Assembly (NCBI GenBank): GCA_021324115.1
Contig: JAJPJS010000025.1
Location: forward strand, 147,661 to 200,342
Source: Nitrososphaerota archaeon
GTDB lineage: Archaea; Thermoproteota; Nitrososphaeria; Conexivisphaerales; DTJL01
DNA length: 52,682 nt
Direction of reading: 5' to 3'
Part shown: positions 34,126 through 42,944 of the stretch, one piece after another
Position numbering within the stretch: position 1 is the first letter of the stretch
Layout: each line of letters starts with the position of its first letter
Translations under genes and position numbers: made by a program
Notes under the pieces: model-generated
The model's database searches: none
The model's input: only the letters and a program-made list of their open reading frames with translations
Told to the model about the DNA's origin: nothing

Positions 34126-34557
34126 TCAACTGGGTTGCTGAGTGGAACTCTTTCTCAGGTTTCTCAGATACTCATCGTAAATCTGCCTGACCTTTTCCCC
34201 GCTCGGCCCGGTTCCTTCCACAACTCCGCTTTCAGTCACCTTTATCTTATCCATCACTATTATGGCTCCAATATCATCCCTTACCCTGACAAGGCCCGGA
34301 AACGCTCTGTTGATAGCATCAGCCAGCGCCTTGAGGTCGAAAGGTCTTTCCATCAGTTTGATTTCACGCACGCTGTGTCCCCCGATAGCCAGTTTGAAAG
34401 ACCTCTCCTCCCCCTCGATGCCGCTTAGAATAAGTGACAGGTTCTCCTGTATCCCCAGCAAAGTCCCATCATACTTCTTTCCATCTACCGTTTCTACAGA
34501 TACCTTACGACCCACAAAGGTGGATAGCTCCTCCGCAAATCTTCTTGATGCTGACAT
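34126..34557 (-). CDS. Sm-like protein with C-terminal domain (SmAP3 type)
   Basis: The N-terminal 70 residues form an Sm fold (ELSTFVGRKVSVETVDGKKYDGTLLGIQENLSLILSG, quoted here as the Sm1 part, then FKLAIGGHSVREIKLMERPFD as Sm2). A further α/β domain of about 70 residues follows (LKALADAINRAFPGLVRVRDDIGAIIVMDKIKVTESG region). This two-domain layout is known for the archaeal SmAP3 group, which forms ring oligomers. RNA binding is expected for the Sm part; the role of the extra domain is unknown. TTTAATA at 34580-34586 lies 26 nt before ATG 34557 (leaderless). It converges on the aspartase gene. Confidence 0.85.
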   Translation of the reverse strand: MSASRRFAEELSTFVGRKVSVETVDGKKYDGTLLGIQENLSLILSGIEGEERSFKLAIGGHSVREIKLMERPFDLKALADAINRAFPGLVRVRDDIGAIIVMDKIKVTESGVVEGTGPSGEKVRQIYDEYLRNLRKSSTQQPS

Positions 34558-34813: not shown

Positions 34814-35782
34814 TTGGAGCACACGAATGAGGGTACAGTTTGTGCGTCGTGCGGCGGCAGATTACTTTCAGCGGGTGATGAGCTTGTTTGCAATATGTGT
34901 GGGGCTACAAGTAGTATCCACCAGGATACAAATTACAAGATGTCGGTTGGCAGGGTAAGCGAAACTCCGTACGAACTTGGTAGCTATCTTGGCCCCTATG
35001 AAGGAATCCGGGCCAAGGATTATCCTGGCTTCAATTTCTCCGGGTCCACAGCCTCATACATCAAGGTTATCTCTGACCATGGGGTTGTTGAGCCCGGAAT
35101 CAAAAAGTACGAGTATGTTTCAAATATTATCGAGAGATGCGCAGAGGCCCTCCATCTTTCCAGCCATATCATTCTTGATGCAAAGAGAATCTCGAAGAAG
35201 ATATTGAAAAGTCCAGACCTAAAACGTGGAATGTTGCCTTCCGTGGCTGCAACTGCCGTAATACTGGCATGCAGGTTCGATGGTAAGCGCCCGGTCAGCT
35301 GGAGGAGGTTGAAAACCATAATGTCTAATCTGGGCTACTCCGTAAGATTCAGGTATGTGATCGATGTCGAAACCCGATCCGAGGAAAGACCCCGACTGGA
35401 TGTGAAAGCTTATGTCAGATATTTCGTGAAAAAAACCTTGGCTGACCCTAACCTTTTGCGCAGACTGGCCAACAGTCATGTCCCTCCGATAGTTTATGAG
35501 TCCAAGCTCGAGAGCACGGCCATCGAGGTGCTTCATCGGATAGGTAAAGTAAGATTCTACGGTTATAGTCCTTTTGCCATATCGGCAACTTCGATTTATA
35601 TTGCAGAATCTTTGCTTAGCGAAAGGGAAGGCAGAAGGAGGCTATTCAATCTTGCAGAAATCACACGCAATTTGGGGATGTCAAGGTCCACGCTTAGAGA
35701 GCAGATAACTAAATTCAGAAAGCTGGTCTTTGGACATCAATCGGTTACAGAAACTGATGATGATCTGGAGGATAACCACTGA
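34814..35782 (+). CDS. Divergent TFB paralogue
   Basis: The 322-residue protein has the TFB architecture: an N-terminal zinc ribbon with four cysteines (CASC ... CNMC, about residues 10-29), a linker, and two cyclin-like repeats (about 105-195 with PSVAATAVILACRFDGKRPVSW, and 215-310 with FAISATSIYIAESLL and a final helix-turn-helix NLGMSRSTLREQI). The B-reader/linker is altered: the canonical GAPLTLTQHDFGLTT is replaced by a SETPYELGSYLGPYEG-like stretch. It is thus an alternative initiation factor or a degenerate regulator. The start is TTG 34814, with AAATATTT about 27 nt upstream. Its 3' end overlaps the convergent minor-pilin operon by 38 nt. Confidence 0.85.
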   Translation: MEHTNEGTVCASCGGRLLSAGDELVCNMCGATSSIHQDTNYKMSVGRVSETPYELGSYLGPYEGIRAKDYPGFNFSGSTASYIKVISDHGVVEPGIKKYEYVSNIIERCAEALHLSSHIILDAKRISKKILKSPDLKRGMLPSVAATAVILACRFDGKRPVSWRRLKTIMSNLGYSVRFRYVIDVETRSEERPRLDVKAYVRYFVKKTLADPNLLRRLANSHVPPIVYESKLESTAIEVLHRIGKVRFYGYSPFAISATSIYIAESLLSEREGRRRLFNLAEITRNLGMSRSTLREQITKFRKLVFGHQSVTETDDDLEDNH

Positions 35783-36560
35783 AGTGGTACAGGCCATCTG
35801 GCAAACTACCAGAAGATTCAGTCTGGTCGTGTTCTTGCTGTGTACTTACGGGACTGACGTGTCCGGATTCCCTCAGCGACACTTCCCAAGAGCCTTGCCG
35901 CGTGCAGTATGCTCCTTTTACCTGAGCTGTAATCTGGTAATATACAATCGAAGGCTTCACGAAAACCATGGTCGTCAGGATACCGCCGGATGGTAAACCG
36001 ACAGATTGATTCATAGAGGCTGATTGTGTCAGGGTCGAATTGGTCGAAGAAATCTCTGTTCTCAGAACAGAAGCTGTGCGGTTAATTACAGCGTAAGTCT
36101 GAAGCAGTGGAAAGGGACACACTGAGGTCACTGTAACATTCCGGATGGCAATGTCATTACTCTGATCCGTAGCATTGACGACAACAGAAAAAATTACTCC
36201 CGTACTCTCGGCACCAGCTGGGTAAACCTCAAATTGGGATGGAAAACCTATTACAACGACGGATGTCATCTCAAACTTCATCGATTCGACCCCCTGCCTG
36301 CACGAATTTACCAAAATCGTAGAAAGTGATGCCACATCTATGGAGGGTGCATGCTCAAGCGTATCGTCCAGAGAAGCGGCGCATGCCACCAACGCGCTCT
36401 GTCCGTATGCATTTATTCCTGTGAAGAGCCTATCTTCATTCAGGTTCGATCCTGCAATAGAGGTCGCCACCTCCCACTCCTGCGAGAGAGCAAACGAACT
36501 CGCCAATATTACCAACCCCGTAGCGAGTGCAAAAAGGGTGAGGGTTACCCCGCGTCGCAA
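35745..36560 (-). CDS. Pilin-like secreted/membrane protein (last gene of minor operon)
   Basis: The protein (271 residues) starts MRRGVTLTLFALATGLVILA: a short basic leader ending in RRG, then one hydrophobic helix. That is like archaeal class III prepilins, although it lacks Glu at position 5. A large extracellular β-rich domain follows, rich in Ser/Thr and N-glycosylation sequons, with several Cys (CAASLDD, CRQG, VCPFPL, YCTRQG) that could form disulfides. The final 40 residues are polar and His/Gln-rich and overlap the TFB paralogue gene on the opposite strand. TTG 36560 overlaps the preceding gene by 16 nt and has a strong GGAGGTG-type Shine-Dalgarno just upstream. It is a candidate minor pilin or tip protein. 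Confidence 0.7.
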   Translation of the reverse strand: MRRGVTLTLFALATGLVILASSFALSQEWEVATSIAGSNLNEDRLFTGINAYGQSALVACAASLDDTLEHAPSIDVASLSTILVNSCRQGVESMKFEMTSVVVIGFPSQFEVYPAGAESTGVIFSVVVNATDQSNDIAIRNVTVTSVCPFPLLQTYAVINRTASVLRTEISSTNSTLTQSASMNQSVGLPSGGILTTMVFVKPSIVYYQITAQVKGAYCTRQGSWEVSLRESGHVSPVSTQQEHDQTESSGSLPDGLYHFSGYPPDHHQFL

Positions 36561-36868
36561 AACACATCCACCTCCATCACTTTACCGTGGATCATGAAAG
36601 AAAAATTGAATAATGGTTGAGCAAGGATTGTCTGTCCAACCTCAAATGTGACACAGGATTGGTTTTCCTCCCCTCCGAGATATGCTTGGTTTCGAATCAA
36701 CGGAAGCAGGTGTAGCATCGCCGAAGCCTGGAGAGCCTTCTGTAAGGCAAACTGTGTATCTTGGGCCTGCTTCCAGTTGGTTGCACTTTCCTTGGCTACG
36801 GATAATGCCCCAGTTACAAGCAGTGCAAGCAGCCCCACGGAAATCAGCGCATCAACCTGTCTTATCAA
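36545..36868 (-). CDS. Small pilin-like protein, single N-terminal membrane helix
   Basis: From TTG 36868 the protein has 107 residues: a short N terminus (MIRQVDA), one membrane helix (LISVGLLALLVTGALSVA), and an extracellular domain with a helical start (ESATNWKQAQDTQFALQKAL, in part) and two Cys (SCVTF, DVFCDAG) that may pair. A longer frame begins at TTG 36916 but runs through the preceding small gene. TTG 36868 overlaps the stop codon of that gene as TTGA, the same coupling seen for scpA-scpB. The protein resembles TadE/TadF or pseudopilin topology, but no specific family is recognised. Confidence 0.65.
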   Translation of the reverse strand: MIRQVDALISVGLLALLVTGALSVAKESATNWKQAQDTQFALQKALQASAMLHLLPLIRNQAYLGGEENQSCVTFEVGQTILAQPLFNFSFMIHGKVMEVDVFCDAG

Positions 36869-36969
36869 CCGCCCCAAACACCCACCAAGGCTCCTGCGCT
36901 GGCCCAGAGAATCCAAAGGTCCAGCAAAAGGCAGAGTAGTGACGCGCCCAGCTCAACGTACTCATCCAT
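36865..36969 (-). CDS. 34-residue membrane protein in the minor-pilin operon
   Basis: A short frame from ATG 36969 to TGA 36865-36867 encodes 34 residues: MDEYVELGAS, then an almost unbroken hydrophobic stretch (LLCLLLDLWILWASAGALVG) and VWGG. It has one of the best Shine-Dalgarno sites in the window (GGAGGTG on the minus strand, 36977-36983, 7 nt before the ATG). It overlaps the stop of the upstream gene (36962-36964) and the start of the downstream gene as TTGA. Such tight coupling argues that it is translated. It is predicted to be a single-span membrane peptide of the pilus complex; no homologue is recognised. Confidence 0.62.
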   Translation of the reverse strand: MDEYVELGASLLCLLLDLWILWASAGALVGVWGG

Positions 36970-37348
36970 ACTTCTGCACCTCCAGATTTCCCTGATGTAG
37001 CCCGACTTGCCAGAGGCCTGAAGAATCAATTACAAAATATCCTTCCATACCGTTCACGATGAAGGTCGCAATAGTTCCATCTAAATTCACGAACCCCCGC
37101 CCGTTGAAAAATGAAATATTGGAGTGTGGAGGAAGACTTACTGCAACTGTAATTGTCGAATCTTGCTTTAGATTTCCAAGCAACAGTGTGATCTCATTGG
37201 CAGTCGCAACAGCCGCACCACTTTCAGGACTCTCTGTGAGTCGTATGACATAGCCCGAGGCGCCTATCGCCAGGATCGCCGTAAGGACGGCCACGAACGA
37301 AGTACTTGACATCGACTCTAGTAGCTTGGAACTCAAACGGTCAGGCAA
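36962..37348 (-). CDS. Small pilin-like protein, single N-terminal membrane helix
   Basis: The protein has a cytoplasmic leader, a membrane helix (SFVAVLTAILAIGASGYVI) and a compact extracellular β-rich domain (TITVAVSLPPHSNISFFNG, FVNLDGTIATFIVNGMEGYFVID, in part), with no Cys. TTG 37348 overlaps the stop of the preceding gene; ATG 37312 (MSSTSFVAVL) is an alternative and would give a shorter leader more like its neighbours. It is the second gene of the minus-strand operon. No family is recognised; topology and position suggest a minor pilin or assembly protein. Confidence 0.62.
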   Translation of the reverse strand: MPDRLSSKLLESMSSTSFVAVLTAILAIGASGYVIRLTESPESGAAVATANEITLLLGNLKQDSTITVAVSLPPHSNISFFNGRGFVNLDGTIATFIVNGMEGYFVIDSSGLWQVGLHQGNLEVQKYG

Positions 37349-37706
37349 CTCCGATGTCCACGATTCCGTCTTTCACCTGAACATTCAACGTACCGCTGGA
37401 ACGAAGACAGAGTAGAACATGCACGCAGGGGATTCCCAGGTCGAGTGTGTGGTATCCCGCCTTGTTGTTGACAACAAGCACGCCACCTCCGCATGTCAAA
37501 TTTGTCGGGTACGCTACAACGTATTGGATGGTAACAATTTGTCCGTTCGATGAAGCATTTCGAACCGCCGAATAAATCTCCGCAGTCAAACCAGCTGCCG
37601 ACTCCTGGGCATTCACTTCCTCGATCTGAGAGTTTACAGCAATGACGGAGAATGAAATAAGGATGGTCAGTGGCACGGCCGCAAGAAGCTTCCCAACTAA
37701 CTGCAT
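37341..37706 (-). CDS. Small pilin-like protein, first gene of minor operon
   Basis: From ATG 37706 (MQLVGKLLAAVPLTILISFS) the 121-residue protein has one N-terminal membrane helix. A helical linker (NSQIEEVNAQESAAGLTAEI) and an extracellular β-domain with three Cys (LTCGGG, IPCVHVLLC) follow. TTG 37715 would add three residues but lies too close to the TATA box. The TATATTA element at 37727-37733 gives a transcription start near 37703-37706. It heads a five-gene minus-strand operon divergent from the ATPase/platform operon. No specific family is recognised. Confidence 0.65.
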   Translation of the reverse strand: MQLVGKLLAAVPLTILISFSVIAVNSQIEEVNAQESAAGLTAEIYSAVRNASSNGQIVTIQYVVAYPTNLTCGGGVLVVNNKAGYHTLDLGIPCVHVLLCLRSSGTLNVQVKDGIVDIGVA

Positions 37707-37724
37707 ACCAAACAAAGTATGTTG

Positions 37725-37734
37725 CCTATATTAG
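37725..37734. promoter_or_regulatory. Single TATA box driving both pilus-like operons
   Basis: CCTATATTAG lies between the divergent operons. On minus its centre is about 25 nt before ATG 37706; on plus it is 26-27 nt before TTG 37756. It is the only TATA element in the gap, so one symmetric box appears to start both transcripts. Confidence 0.62.
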
Positions 37735-37755
37735 CACATGCATCCTTTCCCATCG

Positions 37756-39204
37756 TTGCATGAAATTGCTTCGGCTGAAGGGACAGCTGTATGCTTGTTT
37801 GAAAGCATGCTGACGAAGTCCCAATATGTTCCAGAAACAAGCTACAGGGTAGGCCCGTTTACTGTCGATATACTGAGGCACAAAACACGAACCATCTACA
37901 GCCCGAGGTTGACTCTGGGATCGACGAAAGACATCGATATACTCAGAGCGGCACTCGAGGCAATCGAAGCATCACATTTCGTGCCTCGCAAGTTTCCGAG
38001 GTCTCTTGGCGACTTCATCGAGATGGTGCAGAAAGAGGTAGCTCCCCTCCTTTGTGGATGTTACCTAGACCCCCTCCTGGCATCAAGAGTCGTTGCGTAT
38101 GAGTACATAGGACTAACACGATTGATGCCCGTTTTTGAGGATCATCTTGTGGACGAACTTTTCGTGGACGACCCTCTGTTGCCTCCATACCTTGAGCATC
38201 GTACCCATGGCAGGTGTGATCTTGGATACAGCCTTACCGAAAGAGAGCTCGAATCCGTAAGGACCCATGCGGAAATCTACGGAGGGGTATCACCGTCTTA
38301 CAGGACGCCATCGATTAAGACCGAACTTCACCTAGGAGGGGTGAAGCTGAGGGTGGGTTTGGACACATATCCTGTTGCATACACCGGTTTTTCCCTGCAC
38401 ATCAGGAAGGTTGGCGGGAACGCCCTGACTCTCACTGCACTTGCAAGGGGTGGGGACGTGCCCATCGAAGCCTCTTCGCTTCTGCTTGCTTGTCTGCAAA
38501 ACAGGTTGAATGTAACTATAATAGGTCCTTCCGGTTCGGGGAAGACCACACTTCTTAACGCGCTCGATATGTCCATCGACCCAAGGCTGCGCCGAGTCTA
38601 TGTTGAAGATGCGGTCGAATCCATAGACCTGGCTGCCTGGGGTTTCAGGCAGCTCAAGCTGAGAGTTCCGTCCATTGAAACTGGATACGATGAAGGACAA
38701 AACAAACTCAAGGAGGTACTGAAGACCCTCCACCGATCTCCCGACATCCTGATACTTGGGGAAGTCCAGGATGCGTCCCACAGTTCTGCCATGTTTCAGG
38801 CCGCCGAGGCCGGGATAACAGGGATTCAGACGTTTCATTCATATTCGCCAGAACAGTCAATAAGAAGGTGGACATCTACGCATGGCATTCAGAGGGAACA
38901 GCTAGCCGACCTAGGGGTACTCGCCACGATGGTGAGGGCGAGCCCATTTTCGCCCCGAAGACAACTTGTACGGATATCTGCTATACTTCCTTCTATACAA
39001 CTTATTGACATTTACAGAAGCGAACAAGGCGTAGTCTTCGAAAACCTGGCAAGGTTAGAACAGGAAAGAAACCTAGCCAACTCTTCGTTACATAGTTCGT
39101 TGGAGGCTTTCAGTAAATGGCTTCATAGGGCTTTTGTCGAAGGTTTCTTCGACCAGAATGATTTTCTAGAGTATGCAGTTTCGGAAAGACCGGTGACCGA
39201 TTAG
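37756..39204 (+). CDS. Type IV pilus/secretion ATPase (VirB11/TadA/FlaI-like)
   Basis: This hexameric secretion ATPase powers pilus assembly or secretion at the cytoplasmic membrane. The family N-terminal domain precedes VDELFVDDP and the GVKLRVGLDTYP block. Then come Walker A GPSGSGKTT (about residues 257-265), the Asp-box region VYVEDAVESIDL, Walker B DILILGEVQD (about 330-339, with the usual GEMRD/GEVRD Arg replaced by Gln) and the His box TFHSYS. The length (482 residues) fits archaeal T4P ATPases. The TATA box puts transcription start near 37756, so TTG 37756 (MHEIASAEG) is used; ATG 37738 would lie upstream. It heads an operon with the platform genes. Confidence 0.9.
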   Translation: MHEIASAEGTAVCLFESMLTKSQYVPETSYRVGPFTVDILRHKTRTIYSPRLTLGSTKDIDILRAALEAIEASHFVPRKFPRSLGDFIEMVQKEVAPLLCGCYLDPLLASRVVAYEYIGLTRLMPVFEDHLVDELFVDDPLLPPYLEHRTHGRCDLGYSLTERELESVRTHAEIYGGVSPSYRTPSIKTELHLGGVKLRVGLDTYPVAYTGFSLHIRKVGGNALTLTALARGGDVPIEASSLLLACLQNRLNVTIIGPSGSGKTTLLNALDMSIDPRLRRVYVEDAVESIDLAAWGFRQLKLRVPSIETGYDEGQNKLKEVLKTLHRSPDILILGEVQDASHSSAMFQAAEAGITGIQTFHSYSPEQSIRRWTSTHGIQREQLADLGVLATMVRASPFSPRRQLVRISAILPSIQLIDIYRSEQGVVFENLARLEQERNLANSSLHSSLEAFSKWLHRAFVEGFFDQNDFLEYAVSERPVTD

Positions 39205-39205
39205 C

Positions 39206-39859
39206 ATGGGCACGAAATTGAAGGCATTTGACCCCACCCGTAGACCGGAAAATCTGATTGCGATACTTGTTGTATTTGTTGCAGCGCTTGGAGTAATATC
39301 ATATATTCTGGTCAAAACTCCGCCTTCCGTCTTTTCAATGATATTTGTTTCTTTATCAACGTGGCTACGTTTCAGAATCTTGAGGGAAGGCAAAACCACC
39401 GATATATTGCTCCCAATCGAGGACGCAATTGCGAGGCGTGCTGTGGCGCTAGCAACCAGGTCAAGGATAACGGTACTTTGGGAGTCGTACTTGGCTGGAT
39501 CCAAGTCCGGCGAGCAGTCGGTTTCGAAGTCTTTCAGAGGTATACCTCCGGATCGGGCAGTTGCAGCTTTGGACTGTCAAAGGGGACATGCCCAGGAGTA
39601 TTCACTTCTGTCGCCAGAGCCACCCACGGTCAAAGAGGTTGCGAGCCTCGCCGCCCTGGACGCACGACGTCAATATGCGAAGGTTGCTTCGCAGATAGAA
39701 ACATCGTTTACGTTACTTCAGGGGATCGGTTTCTTCCTGCCCCTTATTGTCATCATTTTTTCACCCCAGGTAGGTCAACCACTGATCAACGGGATATACT
39801 TCGCATTTTCGTATTATCTTCTTCTTGACGGATTTAGGAGGCGCATGAAACCTCTATGA
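39206..39859 (+). CDS. Pilus platform protein, first half (T2SSF/TadB-like)
   Basis: The protein of 217 residues has two N-terminal membrane helices (about residues 17-50), a cytoplasmic helical domain (about 60-170) and two C-terminal helices (LLQGIGFFLPLIVIIF, then LINGIYFAFSYYLLLDGF). This is the layout of a single T2SSF/GspF-like module such as TadB or half of archaeal FlaJ. Sequence similarity is weak, so the call rests on topology and on position: ATG 39206 follows the ATPase stop by 1 nt, and the gene overlaps the next platform gene as ATGATG. It is predicted to form the inner-membrane platform with its partner. Confidence 0.65.
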   Translation: MGTKLKAFDPTRRPENLIAILVVFVAALGVISYILVKTPPSVFSMIFVSLSTWLRFRILREGKTTDILLPIEDAIARRAVALATRSRITVLWESYLAGSKSGEQSVSKSFRGIPPDRAVAALDCQRGHAQEYSLLSPEPPTVKEVASLAALDARRQYAKVASQIETSFTLLQGIGFFLPLIVIIFSPQVGQPLINGIYFAFSYYLLLDGFRRRMKPL

Positions 39860-40467
39860 TGGACCTCATCCTTTCGGCTGTATCTGCACTCGCCGGTGCT
39901 CTGCTTATCCTCACAAAAGAGCATGGATCCACTTCTTCCACCTGGATGCATGAATCAGCATCACTCATACAATCGGGAGCGAGTGCTTCGCGTGCGATCG
40001 CGTACTCCAAATCGGCACCACGCGAACTGGTTTCGAAGGTGTTGCGTGGTAGACCCCCTTCAGAACTAAAGATACGCGATCCTTCCGTAAGAATATCTAT
40101 TCGACTGAGCGAGTCCTCCAGGCAGGCCCCAAAGGAAGCATTACCCGTCTTCGGTGAACTCCTTGCGGATTTCGAAACCGAGAAGATGAAGATAGTTCAA
40201 ACAGCCGGAGCGTTACAACAGAGAGGCGCGATCATGTCATTCGTCCTTGGTGCGATATCTCCGATTCTATCAAAGTTGGGCCCCACTCTAATCCCGTTGA
40301 ATTCAGGCAGTTCGGCACATGGCGCCCAGCTCTTTTCCGCACTGATGGTCATTGCCGCTGCTTCAGGAGGTGTGGACTTGTCTCCAAGGATGAAGGCGAG
40401 TTTTCTACTGTTTCTCATTTCTGAGATGCTAATGTCCTTGTATATCGTCGGATTCATAACCCCCTGA
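39856..40467 (+). CDS. Pilus platform protein, second half (T2SSF/TadC-like)
   Basis: This 203-residue protein has an N-terminal membrane helix (MMDLILSAVSALAGALLIL), a cytoplasmic helical region (TWMHESASLIQSGASASRAI, FGELLADFETEKMKIVQTAG, in part) and a C-terminal hydrophobic region with about three spans. It resembles a second T2SSF module. With the preceding gene it probably equals one archaeal FlaJ/TadBC platform split into two chains. ATG 39856 overlaps the upstream stop (39857-39859), so translation is coupled. The pilin gene follows with its own TATA box. Confidence 0.62.
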   Translation: MMDLILSAVSALAGALLILTKEHGSTSSTWMHESASLIQSGASASRAIAYSKSAPRELVSKVLRGRPPSELKIRDPSVRISIRLSESSRQAPKEALPVFGELLADFETEKMKIVQTAGALQQRGAIMSFVLGAISPILSKLGPTLIPLNSGSSAHGAQLFSALMVIAAASGGVDLSPRMKASFLLFLISEMLMSLYIVGFITP

Positions 40468-40472
40468 GGGTC

Positions 40473-40480
40473 CTTATATT
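40473..40480 (+). promoter_or_regulatory. TATA box of the small pilin gene
   Basis: CTTATATT lies just downstream of the platform gene stop and is centred about 26 nt before ATG 40502. It gives the pilin gene its own strong promoter, as expected for a major structural subunit. Confidence 0.6.
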
Positions 40481-40501
40481 CGCCCAGCATTATCTAGGAT
40501 A

Positions 40502-40690
40502 ATGACCAAAAGAAGAGGAGTTCAACTTGTTGAAGAAGCAATTCTTCTTGTTGTTGCGGTTGTGGTACTTTCCCTGATAGTGGCGGGCATACAGGGTGTG
40601 CTGACCAAAGCAGGTGGCCTCACCACGAATGTATGGACAGACATAAGCAATTCGCTGAACAATTTGTTCGGTTTCCTTTGGCACTGGTGA
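40502..40690 (+). CDS. Flp-like class III (type IV) prepilin, 62 aa
   Basis: The protein begins with a short basic leader, MTKRRG, followed by VQLVEEAILLVVAVVVLSL. Cleavage after Gly6 would leave a mature protein with Glu at position 5 and a long hydrophobic helix. That is the hallmark of type IV prepilins processed by PibD/TadV-type peptidases. The short polar tail (TTNVWTDISNSLNNLFGFLWHW, in part) makes it as small as bacterial Flp/TadA-system pilins. It has its own TATA box and leaderless ATG. It is the likely major pilin of the locus. No prepilin peptidase gene lies in the window. Confidence 0.85.
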   Translation: MTKRRGVQLVEEAILLVVAVVVLSLIVAGIQGVLTKAGGLTTNVWTDISNSLNNLFGFLWHW

Positions 40691-40697
40691 GCCATGC

Positions 40698-42359
40698 GTG
40701 AAGCTGTGGCCACTTTCAAATGGGCAGAGATCAATAAACGAACTTCCCGATGGCGTTGTGCTTACCCAGAAAGGGAGCAATTTTACGTTACATTCTTTTT
40801 ACGAGATCCGTTACGTAGCGGATCTTCCTGATAAGAAATACAAAAACTACGTTGATCAAGTTAAACCTGACGGCTCTTCTGTTTTTGAAGGCTTGCAGAG
40901 GACCAATACCCCGTTTTCGTATTTCCTGCTGGCCAGACCGCTCGAGGGAGAGTTCTTTGAGTATGAATCATATCTTGGTACGTGGGTTTCCTGCAACAAA
41001 GGGTCCATGTCAGACGCCCGGACTGCACTCGAGCAGCAGATGAAGGTCATAGCCGCTGCACTTGCGGTGGGTCTGCCAGGATGCTCGTTCAAGCGAATTG
41101 AAGGGTCGCGAGCCGCTCATCTGGTGGACAGGCTTCTTTCCGCTTCACCGGGTTTGAAGAGGCGCATGGTTCCTGCTGCAATGGGCCTGCTGGCCCCTGT
41201 GGAATTCTCGAGGCGCGGTGGGGAGTCACCCACGCCAGAATTCTATGTGCCTACATCAGTTGAAAACTTGGTCGAAGGCGTTCCTGTTGCACGAATAATC
41301 GTGAATGGTCAGGTAAGGCAGCACCTTTACATGGATCGCGAAGATATTGCAAGGCATATCTGCATACTGGGGATGACGGGATCTGGGAAGACAACCACTG
41401 CCATGACAATTGCGAGAGGTCTTGCGGAGAGGGGCATACCTTTCACCGTGCTTGATACTCACAACGAGTATGCAGAGATGGCAAGGTCACTCGGTGGGGT
41501 GATTGTTGCACCAGGGCGGGACGAGTTCATCCTTAATCCACTTGAAAATCTGGGCACTTCAAGTATTTCAGAGCATGCAGCGCTCGTTACAGATATTTTT
41601 GGAGAGATCTACAGGTTTACAAGTCCGCAATCATTTCTCTTCAGAAACTCAATACTGAAACTGTTGAGCGACGGTCACTCCGGCAGCGAACACAGGCAGG
41701 ACCTTTCAGGTTTGACCGAAATCATCGAGGGCTCTGCCATAAAGTCAGCCTACGACAATGAAACCAAACTCGCCCTTCTGAGAAGGCTGCTCCCCTTAAC
41801 TGAAGGGCAGGGAGGGCGCGCCCTCTGTGGTGTCGGGACAGTCAACATGTCAGAACTTCTTTCAAAACCAACTGTGATCGAGCTTGGTCATTTCAGAGAC
41901 TTTGAAACCAGGACCCTTTTCGCAAGCTTCTTCCTGAAGGCCGTTCACGATTACCGTGTTGGTAGTAGCAAGTCCTCTCTGCAACATGCCATGATCATAG
42001 AAGAAGCTAGATACCTGGTTCCTTCAAGGCGGCCGGAAGATCCTCCTCACGTGACTGAAAGACTGTCATCTGAGCTAAGAAAATTTGGTGAGGCCGTTGT
42101 GTATGTTGCACAATTCCCTTCACAGATATCAGCAGAAGCTATCAAGAACACCGGCGTTCGAATCGCGCACAGAATCGCGTGGACTAGTGATCTCAATGTT
42201 CTGGCTGATGCCATGAACCTGAATCAGGATCAGGCCAAATATCTCAACCAGCTTTCTGTGGGGCAGGCGATAATCAATATAGCACGCCTGCGCAGCTCGG
42301 TTCTTGCGAGCATAATAGCAAGCGATTCGCGCGAGGACCTAAGACAGGTACTTCAGTAA
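40698..42359 (+). CDS. HerA/VirB4-type P-loop ATPase in the pilus locus
   Basis: This 553-residue ATPase belongs to the HerA-FtsK/VirB4 class that pumps DNA or protein through a ring. An N-terminal domain of about 200 residues precedes Walker A GMTGSGKTT (about residues 225-233) and the HerA-like VLDTHNEYAEMAR. Walker B lies in HAMIIEEARYLVPS, and the conserved GEAVVYVAQFPSQISAEAI and NTGVRIAHRIAW give the sensor Gln and Arg finger region. There is no NurA gene nearby, so a resection role is unlikely. GTG 40698 lies 7 nt after the pilin stop. Position suggests a second motor of the pilus machine, like CedB or VirB4 (inference). Confidence 0.85.
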   Translation: MKLWPLSNGQRSINELPDGVVLTQKGSNFTLHSFYEIRYVADLPDKKYKNYVDQVKPDGSSVFEGLQRTNTPFSYFLLARPLEGEFFEYESYLGTWVSCNKGSMSDARTALEQQMKVIAAALAVGLPGCSFKRIEGSRAAHLVDRLLSASPGLKRRMVPAAMGLLAPVEFSRRGGESPTPEFYVPTSVENLVEGVPVARIIVNGQVRQHLYMDREDIARHICILGMTGSGKTTTAMTIARGLAERGIPFTVLDTHNEYAEMARSLGGVIVAPGRDEFILNPLENLGTSSISEHAALVTDIFGEIYRFTSPQSFLFRNSILKLLSDGHSGSEHRQDLSGLTEIIEGSAIKSAYDNETKLALLRRLLPLTEGQGGRALCGVGTVNMSELLSKPTVIELGHFRDFETRTLFASFFLKAVHDYRVGSSKSSLQHAMIIEEARYLVPSRRPEDPPHVTERLSSELRKFGEAVVYVAQFPSQISAEAIKNTGVRIAHRIAWTSDLNVLADAMNLNQDQAKYLNQLSVGQAIINIARLRSSVLASIIASDSREDLRQVLQ

Positions 42360-42944
42360 CCTTTTCTTCGAAGAAGCAGATGCCAGCCAGTCAACGACTT
42401 CACCTCTTTTCGATTCGATCGCGTACAGTATCTTCTCTACGGCGTTTGAAACATCTTTGCCACTGATATCGATTTCAACGCACTTCTCTCCGTACACCTC
42501 GAAGCATTTTGCTGAAACATATCCGATTAACTCCCCGACCACGTTATCTGCAATCCGTTGCTGTGAATACCCGGTTCGTCGGTACCTTTTCTCAAGGATA
42601 AGAGGGTCGCACCTAAGAACCACCACAAGGTCGAGCATAGACTTCGGAACCAGATCCCATAGGAAGCTGCCCTCCACTACATACCCTCTAACACGATCCT
42701 TCAGAAGTGTCTCTCTTACAGCATTTCTCGCCTTTCTGATATTAAGTACGAACATTCCTTGATTGTCGAATCCGCCCGCCTTAGCCTCCCTCGCTACCTT
42801 CGAGACATCTAAGTGAGGAAGGCCCAGCCTCTTCGCTACCAAAACCGATAAAGTGGATTTACCGACTGATGGCGAGCCAGCCACTCCCAACCGCGCGTTA
42901 CTTGACCTTCTTCCTCGTCGGGTATATTTCAGTTCATACCCCAC
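42339..42944 (-). CDS. AK6/Fap7-type adenylate kinase
   Basis: This is a small P-loop kinase of the archaeal AK6/Fap7 group, which has adenylate kinase/ATPase activity and is linked to small-subunit ribosome maturation. Visible motifs are Walker A GSPSVGKST, HLDVSKVA, YVVEGSFL, VVVLRCDPLILEKR and the IADNVVGELIGYV segment. The frame opens at GTG 42944, giving 201 residues, but AK6 proteins usually begin just before the P-loop. TTG 42890 is therefore a plausible alternative. AAATAAAT near 42949-42956 is the likely promoter. The 3' end overlaps the HerA-like gene by 21 nt (convergent). Confidence 0.85.
   Translation of the reverse strand: MGYELKYTRRGRRSSNARLGVAGSPSVGKSTLSVLVAKRLGLPHLDVSKVAREAKAGGFDNQGMFVLNIRKARNAVRETLLKDRVRGYVVEGSFLWDLVPKSMLDLVVVLRCDPLILEKRYRRTGYSQQRIADNVVGELIGYVSAKCFEVYGEKCVEIDISGKDVSNAVEKILYAIESKRGEVVDWLASASSKKRLLKYLS

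Follow-up and report, generated by a model that had tools for sequence, protein, structure and literature searches.

The DNA considered here is a stretch of 52,682 nucleotides (the window) from a Nitrososphaerota archaeon of the class Nitrososphaeria (GenBank assembly GCA_021324115.1, contig JAJPJS010000025.1, positions 147,661 to 200,342), in which a type IV pilus operon of the Tad/Flp kind ends in a gene for a second ATPase, related to CedD of the Sulfolobales. Window positions 37738-42359 on the plus strand form a tight five-gene operon encoding a TadA/FlaI-like ATPase, two platform-like proteins (PlatN and PlatC), a Flp-like prepilin, and an FtsK-HerA-superfamily ATPase; consecutive genes nearly touch or overlap, with spacings of 1, -4, 34, and 7 bp. 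Five single-span proteins of 34 to 271 residues (m1 to m5) are encoded on the minus strand. The divergent m1 and TadA genes have their assigned starts only 22 bp apart (37716-37737); therefore, the two operons must either share a compact two-way promoter, or one of the starts must lie further inside. An earlier reading of the letters and translations (the sequence-only reading) had delimited the locus at 35745-42359; the features it described there are present, but the module reaches out to a divergent gene for a transcription factor B (TFB) paralogue. The genes, in the order of the window, are as follows.

34126-34557, minus strand: LSm gene (Lsm_C, E 2e-18), the conserved left flank, outside the machine
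34814-35782, plus strand: divergent TFB paralogue (TFIIB repeat, E 8e-6 only)
35745-36560, minus strand: m4, the largest protein of the small operon and a candidate minor pilin; N-terminus RRG|VTLTLF without Glu5, position conserved
36545-36916, minus strand: m3, a single-span protein, 123-residue open reading frame (ORF); homologues begin MIRQ[IV]D
36865-36969, minus strand: m5, a single-span protein of 34 residues, MDEYVELGASLLCLLLDLWILWASAGALVGVWGG (quoted start MDEYVELGASLL...)
36962-37348, minus strand: m2, single-span, candidate minor pilin; phmmer 4e-12 to L058 and 5e-6 to L059, position kept elsewhere
37341-37715, minus strand: m1, single-span, candidate minor pilin; phmmer 4e-4 and 6e-5 to L058/L059, position kept elsewhere
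37738-39204, plus strand: TadA/FlaI-like type IV pilus ATPase (T2SSE PF00437, E 1.7e-19)
39206-39859, plus strand: PlatN, putative TadB/TadC-like platform protein (hhalign E 3.4e-5 to the genome's canonical T2SSF platform)
39856-40467, plus strand: PlatC, second platform-like protein; an LxGxxxxxxL segment in common with PlatN (hhalign E 3e-4)
40502-40690, plus strand: Flp-like major prepilin, 62 residues; class III site RRG|VQLVE with Glu5
40698-42359, plus strand: CedD-like hexameric DNA-translocase-type ATPase (FtsK-HerA superfamily), 553 residues, with a P-loop (NCBIfam CedD NF053655, E 1.2e-50)
42339-42944, minus strand: P-loop kinase-like gene (AAA_18, E 8e-12), the conserved right flank, outside the machine

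The proposal of a VirB11/TadA-type ATPase is borne out by the T2SSE match and by the nearest PDB structures, which are 2oap (E 3e-18), CpaF 8rkd (7e-14), and FlaI 4ii7 (1e-12); the protein also displays the Walker A motif GPSGSGKT and a His box. The platform, which had been read as split into two T2SSF-like proteins, divides in the strength of its assignments. PlatN can be called a platform protein with moderate confidence, and one of its homologues matches T2SSF weakly (0.02), whereas PlatC is a weak candidate, whose homologue at L147 also matches T2SSF weakly (0.009) and which gave no significant match to the genome's canonical platform upon profile comparison. The Flp-like prepilin stands as described, with its class III cleavage site and with homologues at all testable class loci, that is, the 34 loci of the class whose contigs allow the neighbours to be checked; the homologue at L089 matches Flp_Fap at E 0.003, and the window prepilin itself has no significant Pfam match. 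One sub-cut-off A24 prepilin peptidase match was found elsewhere in the window genome (G000), and a relative's locus, L148, carries an in-locus prepilin peptidase (A24, E 1e-10).

The second ATPase matches the CedD family NF053655 at 172.7 bits, over the ATPase domain only, and HerA at 49 bits (E 2e-13). Its AlphaFold model (predicted local distance difference test score, pLDDT, 88) finds HerA and the VirB4 ATPase domain as PDB fold matches, the VirB4-type fold being equally good (template modelling score, TM, 0.75 to 4ag6). In a tree of the ATPase domain, canonical HAS-barrel HerA forms its own clade, with a Shimodaira–Hasegawa-like approximate likelihood ratio test (SH-aLRT) support of 100, apart from CedD, the window family, and 900-residue VirB4-like proteins. 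Proteins of the last kind occur at L224-L227 in g35 genomes and probably come from separate conjugation-like systems. The neighbours of the window ATPase are LSm, TFB, pilus genes, and a kinase, with no NurA/Mre11/Rad50 operon. The HerA repair helicase was thus rejected on score, tree, and neighbours: the two have the superfamily and the fold in common, but canonical HerA has another N-terminal domain, and a HerA of this canonical kind is additionally encoded elsewhere in the relatives G007 and G008. The sequence-only reading, which had called the protein a HerA/VirB4-class ATPase and had proposed comparison with CedA/CedB and VirB4 families, was therefore right about the superfamily but not about HerA; CedD is the best family match, and by sequence comparison the window ATPase belongs with CedD rather than with HerA.

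The locus genes occur in the same order in other genomes, where the ATPase is 30-57% identical, including the single-contig genomes G095 and G033; because the order recurs in this way, the genes are coding and not a chimera of a metagenome-assembled genome. The CedD-like protein is present in 45 of the 400 class genomes, in five families, and the prepilin gene directly precedes the ATPase gene in 34 of the 34 testable loci. Phylum relatives were found with the CedD profile and their neighbourhoods were then compared, from which the ancestral block is reconstructed as TgtA(-), LSm(-), TFB(+), small genes(-), TadA, PlatN, PlatC, Flp, CedD-like(+), kinase(-), thermosome(-), and S17e(+). The ATPase gene follows Flp in about 20 of the 27 pilus-bearing families of the phylum, and pilus and ATPase have been inherited together in most lineages. 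The sequence-only reading would have been refuted by an ATPase gene adjacent in this genome only, with orthologues beside NurA, which is not what the neighbourhoods show.

Crenarchaeal-type genomes keep all or most of TgtA-LSm and CedD-kinase-thermosome-S17e (L137, L139, L144, and L158-L160), while TFB and the pilus are missing exactly between LSm and CedD. The Sulfolobaceae have a CedD above the NCBIfam cut-off in the order S17e-CedD-thermosome, followed at L146 and L167 by a short TFB resembling TFB3, HisRS, a proteasome subunit, LSm, and TgtA. The location of the SSO0283 family, which is the CedD of the Sulfolobales, beside the thermosome gene has been recorded earlier (PMC2948915). The LSm gene is the same left flank at crenarchaeal CedD loci, and the kinase lies directly downstream of CedD-like or CedD genes phylum-wide. 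Because the flanks match on both sides (LSm/TgtA on one and kinase/thermosome/S17e on the other) via intermediate lineages, the window ATPase corresponds by synteny to the CedD of the Sulfolobales. The two nevertheless differ, as the window protein is 20-24% identical to CedD and resides within a type IV pilus operon.

This conserved neighbourhood also admits the reading that pilus operon and CedD-like gene have no functional link and are merely neighbours in an ancient informational block (TgtA, LSm, kinase, thermosome, and S17e), given that the flanks are housekeeping genes conserved phylum-wide and that pilus and ATPase have been lost independently. Such chance neighbourhood is unlikely, however, as about 20 families have retained the same-strand, near-touching operon, whereas the housekeeping genes beside it run in convergent or divergent orientation. 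In the close relative G007, moreover, the whole set was lost together between LSm and the kinase, leaving a 69-residue piece of TFB and a 47-residue piece of the ATPase. CedD-based exchange in the Sulfolobales likewise requires a type IV pilus, Ups (PMC11868833).

The ATPase gene is, in addition, a target of integrating elements, being split in four of the 18 g35 genomes that have it. At site 1 (G198, G388, and G319), the gene is broken at the same position, within ...EHIAMVSDIF|S..., with the core TTCTCC, and the junction carries a gene for a tyrosine recombinase; these three integrases are 66-74% identical (PF00589, E 1e-3). Site 2 (G331) lies about 50 codons upstream of site 1, has the core TGGCAC, and is used by an integrase only 35% identical to those of site 1. 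The gene halves now lie 91.5 kb apart in G198 and 78 kb apart in G331. The insertion loci are L182/L183 (G198), L186/L187 (G388), L188 (G319), L184/L185 (G331), and L189 (G348); the G348 contig ends exactly at the site-1 core, and this genome is probably a fifth case. Croucher and colleagues have described elements that hit bacterial competence genes likewise, among them the comFA ATPase gene, which divergent integrases enter at two sites; the authors argue that the process blocked by the insertions is transformation (PMC4774983). The insertions independently suggest that the ATPase gene is of importance to mobile elements and, because they parallel those in bacterial competence genes, they may serve as independent, indirect evidence for a role of the ATPase in DNA import.

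Taken as a whole, the locus is best explained as a DNA-uptake or DNA-exchange pilus, to which a probability of roughly 0.6 is assigned. In Saccharolobus islandicus, DNA import, but not export, has been shown to require CedD (PMC11868833), and in Micrococcus luteus DNA is taken up by means of Flp/Tad pili (PMC6370729). In the proposed mechanism, a Tad-like machine (the TadA motor, two platforms, the Flp-like major pilin, and five minor-pilin-like proteins) would be made together with the CedD-like hexamer. Through its assembly and disassembly, the pilus would take hold of DNA, or of a partner cell, at the surface; disassembly, or the pilus base, would deliver DNA to the membrane, where the CedD-like ring on the cytoplasmic face could pull it inward via a presumed channel. 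DNA as the substrate, its inward direction, and contact between ATPase and pilus are thus postulated, and control of the set by the dedicated TFB paralogue, perhaps on DNA damage as TFB3 does in Sulfolobus, would complete the scheme.

Several observations weigh against this explanation. The window ATPase scores far below the NF053655 equivalog cut-off (172.7 against a curated 600 bits) and lacks the N-terminal transmembrane helices of Sulfolobales CedD, helices of which one to three are predicted in many pilus-linked homologues outside the class and two to three in f27/f29. In the tree, CedD and CedD-like proteins are not firmly separated from VirB4-like ones, as a clade of CedD and the window family that excludes VirB4 is neither rejected nor proven by the approximately unbiased (AU) test (p 0.127). 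The channel protein candidates also fail: ComEC (PF03772) is absent from G000, and CedA (NF041796) was not found in G000 or in the other pilus-bearing genomes tested (G095 and G477), while it is present in G720 and G542. With respect to the gene neighbourhood, three families (f48, f56, and f72; loci L202, L203, L205, L207, L216, L218, and L219) retain TFB, TadA, the platforms, and Flp without the ATPase, and Flp is then followed by the kinase; in f73, f78, and f86 (L208-L210, and L215 with L161-L163), the pilus locus and the CedD-like gene are both present but apart; and crenarchaeal-type families have the ATPase without a pilus. The coupling of pilus and ATPase is therefore not obligatory. 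The idea, already voiced in the sequence-only reading, of a pilus coupled to DNA uptake or transfer or to a second motor is thus supported by the recurring arrangement, but not as a fixed union, and DNA uptake itself remains the interpretative part of it.

The families that keep the pilus without the ATPase also bear on whether the CedD-like protein could be a second, VirB4-like pilus motor, which would help to extract or recycle pilins or would retract the pilus, and would move no DNA. The tight operon with the prepilin (a 7 bp gap), the equally good VirB4-type fold, and the position of the 900-residue VirB4-like ATPases near the pilus-linked group in the tree would all fit such a motor, and in archaea, which are reported to be without PilT, a retraction motor would be useful (PMC11178785). 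These pilus-bearing families do without it, however, and CedD, its counterpart by synteny, functions in DNA import and is retained in many lineages that have no pilus, so that a second motor is improbable, though slightly less so than chance neighbourhood. The VirB4-like fold, together with the relationship of Ced and Ted pili to conjugation machines (PMC9905601), would also suit a pilus for adhesion or secretion whose ATPase exports DNA, in the manner of a conjugation-like donor. Such a donor machine is very unlikely, as the block lies on the chromosome and has been inherited vertically, neither a relaxase nor a coupling protein is seen in the locus, and the import-only requirement for CedD in S. 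islandicus points in the opposite direction.

The DNA-uptake or DNA-exchange pilus proposed here can be compared with the systems it most resembles. Tad/Flp pili, including the Flp competence pilus of M. luteus, likewise have a TadA-type ATPase, two platform proteins (with the weak assignment of PlatC in mind), a Flp-like prepilin of 60-70 residues, and, as in some relatives' loci, a prepilin peptidase gene, but the window locus adds the CedD-like ATPase, TFB, and a five-gene minus-strand operon without recognizable TadE/TadF. Ups pili also work with Ced proteins, CedD included, in DNA exchange; in contrast, the Ups genes lie apart from cedD, there is one platform protein (UpsF), and the role shown for these pili is species-specific aggregation. 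The bacterial Com system offers an analogy of a pilus with a cytoplasmic DNA-pulling ATPase (ComFA) whose gene is targeted at two sites, although the ATPases are not homologous. The parts of the window locus are of known kinds, and the conserved union of pilus and CedD-like ATPase is new. The coupling does not feature in three surveys of archaeal type IV pili (PMC4858521, PMC6668835, and PMC4158269), in agreement with the earlier view that the combination lies outside the well-described archaeal pili; among the open-access papers searched, none links this family of ATPases with a pilus locus, and the CedD arCOG is mentioned in a single paper, which deals with another subject.

The locus TFB is divergent relative to the canonical TFB of the same genome (9722-10684; TFIIB repeat, E 6e-35). 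It lies beside the pilus genes both in the class and across the phylum and is lacking at loci without the pilus, and across losses its presence tracks the pilus rather than CedD; it is the probable dedicated regulator of the locus. TFB3 is strongly induced by ultraviolet light in Sulfolobus (PMC2246294), and the pilus-linked TFB may be the source of the TFB3-like gene. TFB3-like proteins score 21-22 bits against the locus-TFB profile and 15-17 bits against the canonical-TFB profile, a difference too small to establish orthology, so that the link between the two is one of position. In the Sulfolobaceae, the TFB3-like genes lie at L146:4253-4765 and L167:9854-10387, in a conserved block with cedD, LSm, TgtA, and thermosome.

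The recurrence of the same gene set phylum-wide suggests a widespread, undescribed DNA-uptake machine. It is conceivable, at a little short of even odds, that the phylum ancestor had one chromosomal machine of this kind, in which a CedD translocase and a dedicated TFB accompanied a Tad-like pilus; the CedD of the Sulfolobales, and possibly TFB3 too, would then be what remained once the pilus was lost or replaced (by Ups and CedA1 pili), and mobile elements would still be fighting the machine through the cedD-like gene. If so, this would be the first archaeal counterpart of the bacterial competence pilus. Experimental systems for the uptake and exchange of DNA in archaea are few, namely Ced/Ups (Sulfolobales) and Ted (Thermoproteales). 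In many families, a single conserved operon here joins a type IV pilus with the counterpart of a proven archaeal DNA-import ATPase. The locus is thus a concrete candidate for a system of natural transformation, or of exchange between cells, in the Nitrososphaeria and other uncultured lineages, and would also account for the evolutionary origin of CedD and supply a regulator that can be tested.

The five small minus-strand proteins of the sequence-only reading are real, including the 34-residue m5, for which a single-span counterpart of 24-43 residues lies in the same gap in 18 of the 22 relatives examined. The true start of m3 probably lies lower, near 36868 (IRQVDALIS...), judging from its homologues. 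Several of these proteins start almost directly at V/S-x-x-x-E, resembling mature pilins without a leader; relatives of m1 at L072:14009-14368 and L134:2840-2980 also have this mature-pilin-like start and no leader peptide. The profile comparison with TadE/TadF that had been suggested for them gave no Pfam match among the minus-strand proteins, which may be regarded as minor-pilin-like in layout only. The m4 protein, which has no Pfam match, would occupy a GspK-like position. Its AlphaFold model (pLDDT 72) has a long N-terminal helix followed by a beta sheet, and a GspK-like fold was set aside, as the predicted structure gave no match in the PDB fold search.

The genome that holds the window is archaeal and 2.14 Mb in size. 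Archaeal AmoA is absent from it and present in other genomes of the same class. An ordinary archaeal pilus locus with a FlaI-type ATPase and a T2SSF platform lies elsewhere in the genome; the window locus is therefore an additional, distinct system. The other, FlaI-type pilus ATPase (L062:7714-11082) is 1122 residues long, and past ...VLFQAVAS its sequence runs on into VTGDTPILIREKGDV, which is intein-like in appearance.

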